Assembly (NCBI RefSeq): GCF_900100875.1
Contig: NZ_FNKQ01000003.1
Location: forward strand, 434,001 to 498,000
Direction: 5' to 3'
Source of the DNA: Halopelagius longus
GTDB lineage: Archaea > Halobacteriota > Halobacteria > Halobacteriales > Haloferacaceae
Length of the DNA stretch: 64,000 nt
Shown: one piece after another, positions 8,063 through 11,837 of the stretch
Layout: every line of letters begins with the position of its first letter
How positions within the stretch are numbered: position 1 is the first letter of the stretch
Made by a program: the position numbers and the translations under genes
Notes under the pieces: model-generated
What the model saw: the letters and a program-made list of their open reading frames with translations, nothing else
Told to the model about the DNA's origin: nothing
The model's database searches: none

Positions 8063-8637
8063 GCGCTTCCCTCCGTGAGAGGTTCGACGACGTGCAGGTC
8101 CTTCTCGTCGGCTATCGTCCGGACGGCGTCTATCGCGGCCTGCGTCTCGCCCGCGCGGGTGGCGAGGCGGAGGCGGGCGCTCGAAACGTCCTCTCTACCC
8201 TCCGGCGCGTTGAGCGAGATGTCCGACACCGACGCCGAACTGCACTCCTCGATGCGCCGGAGCGTATCCGAGAGGTCCGTATCGACGAGGTGTCCGATGA
8301 GGACGACCGAAAGCTCCTCGCCGTAGCGCTCCGCGCCCGCTTGAATGACGTTGACCCCCTCGCTTCGGAGGGCGTCGACGATGGTGTCGAAGCGGTCGGG
8401 CGGACACTCCAAGTCCACTTCGACGGGGATGCGGCCGCGGGGCGTCAGGTTCCCGCGTTCGTGGAAGATGGAGAGGAGGTTGCCGCCGTTGTCCGAAATC
8501 GGCCGGAGGGCGGCGAGCAGTTCGCCCGGTTCGTCCACGAGTTCGAGGCGAATCGTGTGCGGTTGCGGCCGTTCGCCGCCGTCAGTCTCGGTGACCTCCT
8601 CGGGGCCGGCCGCCGCGGCCGACTCCTCGTCGCTCAT
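8059..8637 (-). CDS. ACT-domain amino-acid-binding protein of the hom operon
   Basis: 192 residues. An acidic N-tail (residues 1-25) precedes a clear ACT domain (IRLELVDEPGELLAALRPISDNGGNLLSI) and a second ACT-like half (ELSVVLIGHLVDTDLSDTLRRI). It probably binds threonine or another pathway product and regulates homoserine dehydrogenase in trans, replacing the ACT tail missing from hom. Its last 4 nt overlap hom, and its ATG overlaps the stop of an upstream 34-codon ORF (ATGA). The feedback role is inferred from the fold and context. Confidence 0.88.
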   Translation of the reverse strand: MSDEESAAAAGPEEVTETDGGERPQPHTIRLELVDEPGELLAALRPISDNGGNLLSIFHERGNLTPRGRIPVEVDLECPPDRFDTIVDALRSEGVNVIQAGAERYGEELSVVLIGHLVDTDLSDTLRRIEECSSASVSDISLNAPEGREDVSSARLRLATRAGETQAAIDAVRTIADEKDLHVVEPLTEGSA

Positions 8638-8738
8638 CGTTCCACCTCCCGAACGCGTCGCTCGCCTGTTGTCGACAGGGAGCGGTCGTACTGTTGCTCC
8701 GTGTCGATGCGGCGCGGGAGGGGGGTCCCCGTCTGCAT
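8634..8738 (-). CDS. Putative leaderless 34-aa leader ORF of the ACT-hom operon
   Basis: The ORF starts MQTGTPLPRR and ends EVER, with a stop (TGA, 8634-8636) that overlaps the ATG of the ACT gene. A strong TATA box (GCTTATAAGC, 8761-8770) sits 27 nt upstream of this ATG, so the mRNA should start at or next to it; that makes this the first cistron of a leaderless message. It has five Thr among 34 residues (positions 3, 5, 13, 23, 24). Threonine is an end product of the Hom pathway, so a translation-coupled sensing role is possible but unproven. It could also be a chance ORF in a short leader. Confidence 0.45.
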   Translation of the reverse strand: MQTGTPLPRRIDTEQQYDRSLSTTGERRVREVER

Positions 8739-8760
8739 ACTACCGACAACTCGTTGCTCC

Positions 8761-8770
8761 GCTTATAAGC
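8761..8770 (-). promoter_or_regulatory. TATA box of the leader-ACT-hom operon
   Basis: GCTTATAAGC is palindromic at its core and centred about 27 nt before the ATG at 8738. No other start signal lies between it and the ACT gene, so the transcript most likely begins at the mini-ORF. Confidence 0.7.
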
Positions 8771-8907
8771 CTTCGTCGATTGCAAATCTGTCCGGCGTCG
8801 GCCGAGCGTCCGCACGGTTGACGGGTTCGTATCTACGAGAATCATAGAAAAAACAACCTCGGAAACCGGCCGTCAAATACTCCGCGCTGCACGGGCGACA
8901 CTCGTGT

Positions 8908-10227
8908 ATGGGTAGCCTGGGCCTGAAGGAAGCGGTGGCGATGGCGTTAGGGGGGATGATCGGAGGCGGAATCTACTCCGCGTTCGGCATCGTCGTCGCC
9001 ATCTCCGGGACCGCCGCGTGGGTCGCCTTCCTCGTCGCGGGGACGGTGGCGATGTGCGCGGGCTACAGCTACGTGAAGTTGAACGAACACACCGACGGCA
9101 ACGGCGGCGCGCCGACGTTCGTCCGGGAGTTCGTCGGGTGGGACACCCTCGCGGGGATGATCGGCTGGACGCTCCTGTTCGGGTACATCGGGTCGATGGC
9201 GCTGTACGCCTACGCGTTCGCCGGGTTCTTCTCGGAGATGCTGGGCCGCCTCCACTTCCTCGGCGTCCCCGTGGCGAACGTCGTCTCCGCGTTCCTCATC
9301 GCCGTCTTCGTCGGTCTCAACCTCCTCGGCGCGTCGGAGACGGGGAAGGCCGAGGACGTCCTCACGTTCGCCAAGGTGGCTATCATCGGCGTCTTCGGCC
9401 TGTGGGGCGTCTGGTACGCGTTCAACGGTCACACGCTCGCGTTCGGCTTCGACGAGGTGCTCACGCCCAGCCCGGTCGTCGGCGCGGCGATGTCGTTCGT
9501 CGCCTTCCAAGGGTGGCAGCTTCTCATGTACGATCAAGGCCAGTTCGACGACCCCGTCGAGAACATCAAGACCGCGATATACGTCTCCATCCCCGCCGCG
9601 ACGCTCCTGTACGTCCTCGTGGCGCTGACGACGGTGAGCCTCCTTCGGCTGTCGGTCATCGCCGTCGCGCCGGAGGTGTCTCTCCTCTACGCCGGCATCG
9701 AGTTCATGGGTCGCATCGGCGCGTTCGTCATCGGCCTCTCGGCGCTGTTCTCGACGGCGAGCGCCGTCAACGCCACCCTGTTCAGCAGCGCGCAGTTCTC
9801 GCGCGACCTCATCGACATGGGACTGCTCCCCGAGCGGTTCGGCGGGGGAGACGGCGACATCCCGAAGAAAATCGTCGTCGTCCTCGGCGTCCTCTCGGCG
9901 GCGTTCGCCGTCTACGGGAGCCTCTCCAGCATCACGTCGTTCGCCTCGCTCTCCTTTATCGCCGTCTTCGGCGGCATGAGTTGGCTCACGTTCCGCAAGC
10001 GCGCGGAGTTCGACGACGTGTCCGCCGCGATACCCCTCGTCGGCGTCGTCGGGACGGTGGTGTTCTTCCCCCTGCTTCTCTACAACCTCTACGTCAACAG
10101 CCCCGGCGTCTTCTACACCGTCGTCGTCATCTCCGTCCTCGTCGTCGGGAGCGAACTGTTCTACTTCGAACGCGAACCGCTCGAAGAACTGCTGCCGTGG
10201 ATGTCCACCGAGGGTGAAAACAGATGA
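8908..10227 (+). CDS. APC-superfamily amino acid permease
   Basis: 439 residues with about 12 hydrophobic segments. The first begins LKEAVAMALGGMIGGGIYSAFG, the APC helix-1 GxGxxG-type signature; later segments include YIGSMALYAYAFAGFF and FSTASAVNATLFSSAQF. It should be a sodium- or proton-coupled amino acid transporter in the cytoplasmic membrane; the substrate is unknown. It is divergent from the ACT-hom operon. Its stop overlaps the ATG of the following Tat lipoprotein by 4 nt, so both are made together. The pair interrupts the conserved fusA-to-tuf region on the opposite strand. Confidence 0.93.
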   Translation: MGSLGLKEAVAMALGGMIGGGIYSAFGIVVAISGTAAWVAFLVAGTVAMCAGYSYVKLNEHTDGNGGAPTFVREFVGWDTLAGMIGWTLLFGYIGSMALYAYAFAGFFSEMLGRLHFLGVPVANVVSAFLIAVFVGLNLLGASETGKAEDVLTFAKVAIIGVFGLWGVWYAFNGHTLAFGFDEVLTPSPVVGAAMSFVAFQGWQLLMYDQGQFDDPVENIKTAIYVSIPAATLLYVLVALTTVSLLRLSVIAVAPEVSLLYAGIEFMGRIGAFVIGLSALFSTASAVNATLFSSAQFSRDLIDMGLLPERFGGGDGDIPKKIVVVLGVLSAAFAVYGSLSSITSFASLSFIAVFGGMSWLTFRKRAEFDDVSAAIPLVGVVGTVVFFPLLLYNLYVNSPGVFYTVVVISVLVVGSELFYFEREPLEELLPWMSTEGENR

Positions 10228-11837
10228 CCGACGAAAATTGGACGCCGACGCTCGGCAGGCGCGACGCGCTCAAAGGCATCGCCGTCGCCGCGGGGGCGGC
10301 GCTTTCCGGCTGCTCCGCGGAGGCCGTCCCGGGCAACGACCCGGGCGAGCAACTTCGGTACTCGATGGTGCTTCCGCCCGTCACGCTCGACCCGGTGGAG
10401 ACGACGGACGCGTGGTCGGCGAAGGCGGAGAACCTCGTCTTTCAGGGACTGTACGCCTACGACCGGGAGATGAACCGCGTTCCCGTCCTCGCGTCGGGGA
10501 GTCCGACGGTGAGCGACGACGGGCGGACGTACACCGTCTCGCTGACCGAGGGGGCGACGTTCGCCGACGGGAGCGACGTGACGGCGGCGGACGTGAAGTA
10601 CACGTTCGAGGCCCCCATCGCCGAGGAGTCGCCGAACGCGTGGCAGGTGGAGATGCTCGAGGCGGTGGAGACGCCGGACGAGCGAACCGTCCGGTTCGAA
10701 CTCTCGCACCCCTATCCCGCCTTCGAGCACGCGCTGACGCGCAAGGTGGTTCCGAAGGGCGTCCGGGAGGGCAACGAGACGATGTTCGGGAAGCGACCGG
10801 ACTCGACGGTGGGGTCCGGCCCCTACGACCCGGCGGTGTTCAAGCGGGGGAAGTACGTCCGCCTCGAACGGCGCGGCGACGTCTGGGGCGAACGGTCGCC
10901 GGCGGTCGAGAGGGTCAAACTCATCAACACGCACGCGGGCCTCGCGCGGACGATGGCCCTGAAGACGGGCCAAAGCGACGTCGTAGAGCGTATCCAGCCG
11001 AAACTGTGGGAGGCGACGCGGAAGATGCCGAACGTCTCTATCGTCCAACGGCCCAGTTTCAGTTCCTACTTCCTCGCGTTCAACTGCGGGGCCGAACCCA
11101 CCGCCGACCCGAAAGTCCGCGAGGCCGTCGACTACCTCGTCTCGATGGACGAGTTCGTCGAACACATCGTCGGCGAAGGCGGCGAACGACAACCGAGTCC
11201 GCTTCCGAACCGACTCGCCGAGGCGTGGAACTTCCCGCTGGGCGAGTGGGCGGGCGTCCAACACGACAAGAACGTAGAGGAGGCGAAGGCGCTGTTCGAG
11301 GAGGCGGGCGTGAAGAACTGGTCGCCGAAGATAGTCGTCCCCCACAACGACAAGATGCGCGAGAAGTTGGCCAACGCCGTCGCGCACGGCCTGAAGAACG
11401 CCGGGTTCCGGCGCGCACGCGTCGTCAAGCACCACTGGGAGAAGTTCCGCGAGACGGTGACCTCCGGCAACAGAGACGAGTACGCGATGTACGTCGGGTC
11501 GTGGGCGGGCGGCCCCGACCCGGACACGTACCTCTACCCGCTGTTTCACTGGAGTCAGGAGGACGCCACCAACGGGACGTTCTACCACGAGGAGTCGGTG
11601 ATGCGCAGACTTCGGCGCGCCCGCCGGACGACGGACCGAGAGCGGCGACGGACGCTGTACGAGAGGACGATTACGACGCTTTTGGAGGACCGAGTCGTCC
11701 TCCCGGCGTTCACGCTCGACAACAGTTTCGGCGTCAAGCGGCGCGTCCGCGACTTCGAGGCGCACCCGATGGCGCAGTACAACCCGCGTCTGGTCGGCGG
11801 ACGCGGAAGCGACGCGCCGGTCCGCCTCCGCGAGTGA
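10224..11837 (+). CDS. Tat lipoprotein, peptide/nickel-type ABC substrate-binding protein (SBP_bac_5)
   Basis: 537 residues. The twin-arginine signal (GRRDALKG, residues 11-18) is followed by a hydrophobic stretch and a lipobox LSGC with Cys30, so it is a membrane-anchored extracytoplasmic protein. The body is an extracellular solute-binding family 5 fold (LDPVETTDAWSAKAENLVFQGL near the start, TVSLTEGATFADGSDVTAADVKYTFEA in domain I, AWNFPLG, FVGSWAGGPDP-like region near residue 430). Members usually bind oligopeptides, dipeptides or nickel for an ABC transporter, yet no ABC permease or ATPase is next to it. The 4-nt overlap with an APC permease suggests it feeds or regulates that carrier. 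Confidence 0.9.
   Translation: MTDENWTPTLGRRDALKGIAVAAGAALSGCSAEAVPGNDPGEQLRYSMVLPPVTLDPVETTDAWSAKAENLVFQGLYAYDREMNRVPVLASGSPTVSDDGRTYTVSLTEGATFADGSDVTAADVKYTFEAPIAEESPNAWQVEMLEAVETPDERTVRFELSHPYPAFEHALTRKVVPKGVREGNETMFGKRPDSTVGSGPYDPAVFKRGKYVRLERRGDVWGERSPAVERVKLINTHAGLARTMALKTGQSDVVERIQPKLWEATRKMPNVSIVQRPSFSSYFLAFNCGAEPTADPKVREAVDYLVSMDEFVEHIVGEGGERQPSPLPNRLAEAWNFPLGEWAGVQHDKNVEEAKALFEEAGVKNWSPKIVVPHNDKMREKLANAVAHGLKNAGFRRARVVKHHWEKFRETVTSGNRDEYAMYVGSWAGGPDPDTYLYPLFHWSQEDATNGTFYHEESVMRRLRRARRTTDRERRRTLYERTITTLLEDRVVLPAFTLDNSFGVKRRVRDFEAHPMAQYNPRLVGGRGSDAPVRLRE

Follow-up and report, generated by a model that had tools for sequence, protein, structure and literature searches.

Before the TAXI-GltS proposal, TRAP and TTT were the only secondary transporters known to use a solute-binding protein (SBP) (Jaques et al. 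2025, PMC12344293). TRAP, TTT, and the proposed TAXI-GltS systems all have elevator-type carriers. Jaques et al. (2025, PMC12344293) considered that binding-protein use may depend on an elevator mechanism and called for further classes as a test. The archaeal locus described here places a gene for an APC-family carrier, with a predicted LeuT-type fold, next to a gene for a family 5 SBP. A carrier of this family should work unaided, and SBPs of this type ordinarily supply ATP-driven importers. The constant pairing of the two genes in salt-loving archaea points to a possible new type of nutrient importer with two components. We found no earlier report of an APC-SBP pair in the open-access literature.

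The gene pair in Halopelagius longus

We analyzed a stretch of 64,000 nucleotides from H. longus (contig NZ_FNKQ01000003.1, positions 434,001 to 498,000), hereafter called the window. Positions are counted from its first letter, and the features of the pair are as follows.

8908..10227, + strand: APC-family carrier, ApcT-like, LeuT fold, 439 amino acids (Pfam, profile, AlphaFold2)
9373..9375, + strand: TM5 Lys156 of the carrier, equivalent of ApcT Lys158, a Na2-site surrogate (alignment)
9643..9690, + strand: TM7-TM8 loop of the carrier (EL4 by homology), residues 246-261 (helix borders from the predicted model)
10224..10227, + strand: ATGA start/stop overlap of the APC and SBP genes (sequence; similar junctions in most homologous pairs)
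10224..11837, + strand: family 5 solute-binding lipoprotein (SBP), 537 amino acids (Pfam, AlphaFold2, PDB fold matches)
10257..10262, + strand: twin-arginine (Tat) motif, SBP Arg12-Arg13 (>90% conserved in a 62-row alignment)
10302..10313, + strand: lipobox LSGC with lipid-anchor Cys30 of the SBP (Cys30 invariant in the 62-row alignment)
11502..11504, + strand: SBP Trp427, equivalent of DppA Trp405 and OppA Trp416 (alignment)

An earlier note on this DNA, made from the sequence alone, had given the coordinates, reading frames, and 4-nt ATGA overlap of the two genes correctly, and database matches support its naming of an APC carrier and a family 5 SBP. Its description of the genes as "fused by translation" was wrong: they are two ORFs in different frames, translationally coupled at most. 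The carrier matched Pfam AA_permease_2 (PF13520) over residues 4-408 (87.8 bits; cut-off, 27; E, 9e-25), and its nearest solved structure by sequence was ApcT (MJ0609) of Methanocaldococcus jannaschii (profile, E 5e-42). Its AlphaFold2 model (pLDDT, 91.8), which has a LeuT-type fold, had ApcT as the best PDB fold match (3gia; TM, 0.84), and SLC7 carriers with ectodomain partners were also structural relatives by fold match. The SBP matched SBP_bac_5 (PF00496) with 228.6 bits (cut-off, 32.4; E, 2e-67), and its model (pLDDT, 91.4; pTM, 0.88) matched GsiB, NikZ, AppA, and DppA in the PDB. The twin-arginine signal and lipobox Cys30 that the earlier note had pointed out are both present, and by these motifs, which were aligned after degenerate pairs had been omitted, the SBP is a predicted Tat-exported lipoprotein. 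Pfam assigned only AA_permease_2 and SBP_bac_5 to the pair, with no DctP, TAXI, or Bug SBP and no DctQM, TctAB, or GltS carrier.

No homologue of DppB, DppC, or the ATPase was found within the window, which agrees with the earlier reading that no ABC permease or ATPase is adjacent. On the left, the other strand carries genes that we take, from reading their sequences, to encode an ACT-domain protein and homoserine dehydrogenase; the flanking gene on the right, also on the other strand, is presumably fusA (aEF2), likewise named by sequence reading. With a tuf-like aEF1A gene further along, the fusA-tuf setting proposed earlier holds. In a second genome (L074, G022:C1:503000-521900, at 8588-9904), this fusA/homoserine dehydrogenase site holds a solo APC gene (∼48% identical) that has no SBP and whose orientation to the neighboring genes is reversed.

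The genome of H. longus contains 11 SBP_bac_5 genes, and the nearest paralogue of the window SBP belongs to a complete dppABCDF operon. A search of genome contigs with the window SBP gave two distant loci only. An orphan family 5 SBP in the same genome (L132, G000:C1:374561-376153) is ∼40% identical to the window SBP and has no DppB, DppC, or APC gene nearby; orphan SBPs similar to it were seen at four further loci (L104, L108, L142, and L150).

Recurrence and gene order across Halobacteria

The earlier note had proposed a search for the same adjacency across Halobacteria and had named absence of the pair from all relatives as the outcome that would speak against its reading. The pair recurs. 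We searched 391 Halobacteria genomes with SBP and APC profiles made from six pairs; 29 SBPs of the paired subclade scored above 650 bits, and the next SBP, at 608 bits, is dpp-linked. All 29 adjoin an APC gene on the same strand (28 top-group APCs and one truncated APC, in G365). Across the whole family of genome G413 (125 genomes), strict thresholds retained 22 proteins of each kind, which came from one and the same set of 22 genomes, and by coordinates every SBP gene was adjacent to its APC gene. Further pairs were found in two relatives (G018 and G125, the latter truncated) and in plasmid records of Haladaptatus halobius and Halomarina sp. BND7, bringing the pair-bearing genomes to about 39 in total. 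Named records with the pair include those of Halopiger xanaduensis SH-6 (HALXA_RS18860/18865), Halorussus halophilus, and Natrinema versiforme, where the SBP is labeled "ABC transporter substrate-binding protein." A search of 393 genomes of the phylum did not detect the SBP clade outside Halobacteria, but few other pairs were reached by this sample either.

This recurrence is far beyond chance. Chance adjacency is ruled out by the complete pairing in both sets (29/29 and 22/22), and an assembly artefact is ruled out by the complete named plasmids that carry the pair. We likewise reject the idea that the two genes are what is left of an ABC operon, as the paired SBPs make up an old clade of their own, with intact genes in both orders.

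No single-chain fusion of APC and SBP was seen; at the G018 locus, the two genes are in frame. Four loci showed signs of decay or assembly errors: a missing lipobox Cys (G019, L116), an in-frame TGA within the APC gene (G333, L171), a truncated or altered APC (G365, L173), and a truncated SBP (G125, L117).

Both gene orders occur among the 33 junctions, 10 with the carrier gene first (APC>SBP) and 23 with the SBP gene first (SBP>APC). The 10 APC>SBP junctions have spacings of -4 to +18 nt, and 22 of the 23 SBP>APC junctions have a 4-nt ATGA or GTGA overlap, the remaining one being at -8. The 4-nt overlap alone is unremarkable, since 71 of 810 same-strand neighbors in the fetched loci (8.8%) also show a spacing of -4. 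There is no conserved third gene across the pair neighborhoods, and the surroundings vary between lineages. A single pair among 31 has dppBC nearby (dppBC-like, divergent genes in Natrinema versiforme, L157), and none of the pairs of the seven nearest relatives do. Adjacency and direction that are kept while order changes and surroundings are replaced are the expected trace of selection on a two-protein unit.

Several neighborhoods recur within parts of the data set. In two genomes of genus g47 (L112 and L151), the pair comes immediately after a kynureninase gene, with glyoxalase/dioxygenase-like and hydrolase genes on its other side; this may hint at an aromatic solute. Nine SBP>APC pairs (L155, L156, L158, L159, L162-L165, and L171) are followed, often within ∼40 nt, by a large convergent gene that we take to encode DNA topoisomerase I. 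Many solo APCs of this family (L071-L073, L079, L081, L083, L086, and L087) lie between thermosome-like and TRIC/UPF0126-like genes, with NMN adenylyltransferase- and Lon-like genes next; these names are our presumptive readings of the sequences.

Phylogeny and diagnostic residues of the two partners

In the SBP tree, 32 paired SBPs formed one clade (SH-aLRT, 100) outside the dpp-linked and orphan SBPs, and this clade split into the two gene-order groups with supports of 99 and 100. Each gene-order group was also a strong clade in the APC tree. Forcing the two carrier groups (A and B) into one clade cost 8.5 log units and was not rejected (p-AU, 0.35), and a solo APC (L186) joined the SBP>APC group (group B); thus, the carrier may have been recruited either once or twice. 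Distances between partners were correlated (r, 0.93), a value expected from joint inheritance alone.

In G224 (L185, G224:C15, 3242-11148), a same-family APC gene precedes a complete dppABCDF operon by 311 nt, both being on one strand. The arrangement gives a plausible picture of how an APC-SBP association could begin, although the G224 APC is no close relative of the paired carriers. A related APC lies near a contig end in genome G225.

The placement of the SBPs bears on one alternative, in which the orphan SBP feeds an ABC importer for peptides or other solutes encoded elsewhere, the APC moves related amino acids by itself, and the two genes are merely co-regulated. The earlier note had named a distant ABC permease as a case against its proposal, and such permeases are at hand: all 30 pair genomes tested contain one of the OppB type. 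Orphan relatives of the SBP exist, one of them in the same genome (G000:C1:374561), and the position of the G224 APC directly upstream of dppABCDF indicates that the two transporters can be functionally linked. However, the ABC-linked SBPs of this lineage come with permeases of their own and fall into separate clades, and 5 of 31 pair genomes (G129, G392, G019, G320, and G375) have no close relative of the matching DppB, that is, none above about 47% identity to the partner of this SBP lineage. Co-regulation would also leave unexplained the constant pairing of one SBP clade with the APC, the two gene orders, and the start/stop overlap. We therefore consider service to an ABC importer elsewhere unlikely.

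The two gene-order groups differ at key residues of both proteins. The pocket Trp (Trp427 in the window SBP) is present in all 49 ABC-linked SBPs and all 10 SBPs of the APC>SBP group and is replaced by Ile, Val, or Thr in all 22 SBPs of the SBP>APC group. The TM5 Lys of the carrier is found in all 46 solo carriers and all 10 APC>SBP carriers, and the 22 readable SBP>APC carriers have Gln instead. Both partners therefore changed together between the groups, and because a key residue changed in each, the SBP>APC group probably uses a different solute and a different coupling. In ApcT-like carriers, the TM5 lysine replaces the Na2 sodium (PMC5803215), and in GkApcT the equivalent Lys is dispensable for proton coupling (PMC5803215). 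The change from Lys to Gln in SBP>APC carriers makes it harder to assume one coupling mechanism for all pairs.

A second pocket residue bears on the type of ligand. Asp408 of DppA and Asp419 of OppA anchor the peptide N-terminus. All paired SBPs lack this Asp through a deletion, as do 48 of the 49 haloarchaeal relatives that are ABC-linked. The earlier note had offered two readings of the pair, one of them that the SBP scavenges peptides whose amino acids enter through the permease; surface or cytoplasmic peptidases would then have to split the peptides. Family 5 does include peptide binders, and one pair (L113) adjoins an M24 peptidase gene, but the loss of the anchoring Asp throughout the clade and the lack of a peptidase common to the neighborhoods weaken this reading to the point where we regard it as highly improbable.

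The lipoprotein might also be a partner of the APC that delivers nothing, such as a subunit for stability, trafficking, or regulation (comparable to 4F2hc and rBAT, the partners of SLC7 carriers) or a gating sensor. SLC7 carriers with ectodomain partners are structurally related to the APC, and haloarchaeal SBPs have already been recruited to non-ABC partners: in Halobacterium, taxis transducers copurify with two SBPs, BasB and CosB (PMC3579733). Against such a role, the high-confidence model of the SBP is that of a complete family 5 binding protein, and the pocket Trp is kept in the APC>SBP group; ligand binding is therefore probably retained, and a partner without a delivery function seems rather doubtful to us.

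On the carrier side, 11 alignment columns are conserved in both pair groups and rare in solo carriers. Three of these (Leu246, Leu260, and Tyr261) fall in EL4 (P, 0.007, calculated post hoc), and the others are mostly in TM1, TM5, and TM8.

A proposed importer and its relation to known systems

Our preferred reading, which we hold to be somewhat probable from the comparative data, is that the APC and the SBP form a self-contained, binding-protein-dependent secondary importer. This corresponds to the other reading in the earlier note, a binding-protein-dependent APC carrier, and the comparative evidence for it is strong: exclusive adjacency, tight junctions in both gene orders, a single SBP clade, and the lack of ABC genes. 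Against it, APCs of this family often occur solo and apparently do without an SBP, so the carrier may also function by itself. In this importer, the Tat pathway would export the lipid-anchored family 5 SBP to the outer face of the membrane, where it would capture a scarce small solute and hand it over, by direct contact, to the ApcT-like carrier. The carrier would then import the solute at the expense of an ion gradient rather than ATP. Should the TM5 lysine act as it does in ApcT, the coupling ion of the APC>SBP group would be a proton. The solute is probably an amino acid or an amino-acid-like compound. If the proposal is true, many haloarchaeal genes now called "ABC transporter substrate-binding protein" belong to ATP-independent importers.

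Each half of the pair has known relatives. ApcT (MJ0609) and GkApcT are APC-family amino-acid transporters and the closest relatives of the carrier in fold and sequence, and they share the TM5 Lys with the window protein; unlike the proposed importer, they have no binding protein. The Dpp, Opp, Gsi, and Nik ABC importers use SBPs of the same family and fold as the paired SBP, whereas the paired SBP has no linked permease or ATPase, belongs to a separate clade, and, where the gene order is SBP>APC, no longer has the pocket Trp. The SLC7/SLC3 transporters (LAT1-4F2hc and b0,+AT-rBAT) resemble the pair in combining an APC-family carrier with a membrane-anchored extracellular partner, but that partner is not a solute-binding protein and delivers no substrate.

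As systems, TRAP and TTT come close to the proposed pair in that an extracytoplasmic SBP feeds an ion-driven carrier, although both their SBPs and their membrane proteins are from unrelated families. TAXI-GltS (BP0403/GltS of Bordetella pertussis; PMC12344293) combines a lipoprotein SBP with a translationally coupled secondary carrier, a coupling that the overlapping APC and SBP genes may share. As in our pair, canonical partner genes are absent, the SBP gene lies up- or downstream of the carrier gene depending on the organism, and SBP-dependent secondary transport has been proposed. Fused forms and ligand binding are known for TAXI-GltS, whereas the APC-SBP pair is known from genes and models. 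The families also differ, with a TAXI-type SBP and an ESS/GltS elevator carrier in the one and a family 5 SBP and an APC/LeuT-fold carrier in the other. A LeuT-fold carrier that works with a family 5 SBP could thus test the elevator-requirement proposal of 2025, and we give an even chance to the reading under which SBPs also serve non-elevator secondary carriers, in contradiction to the elevator-only proposal.
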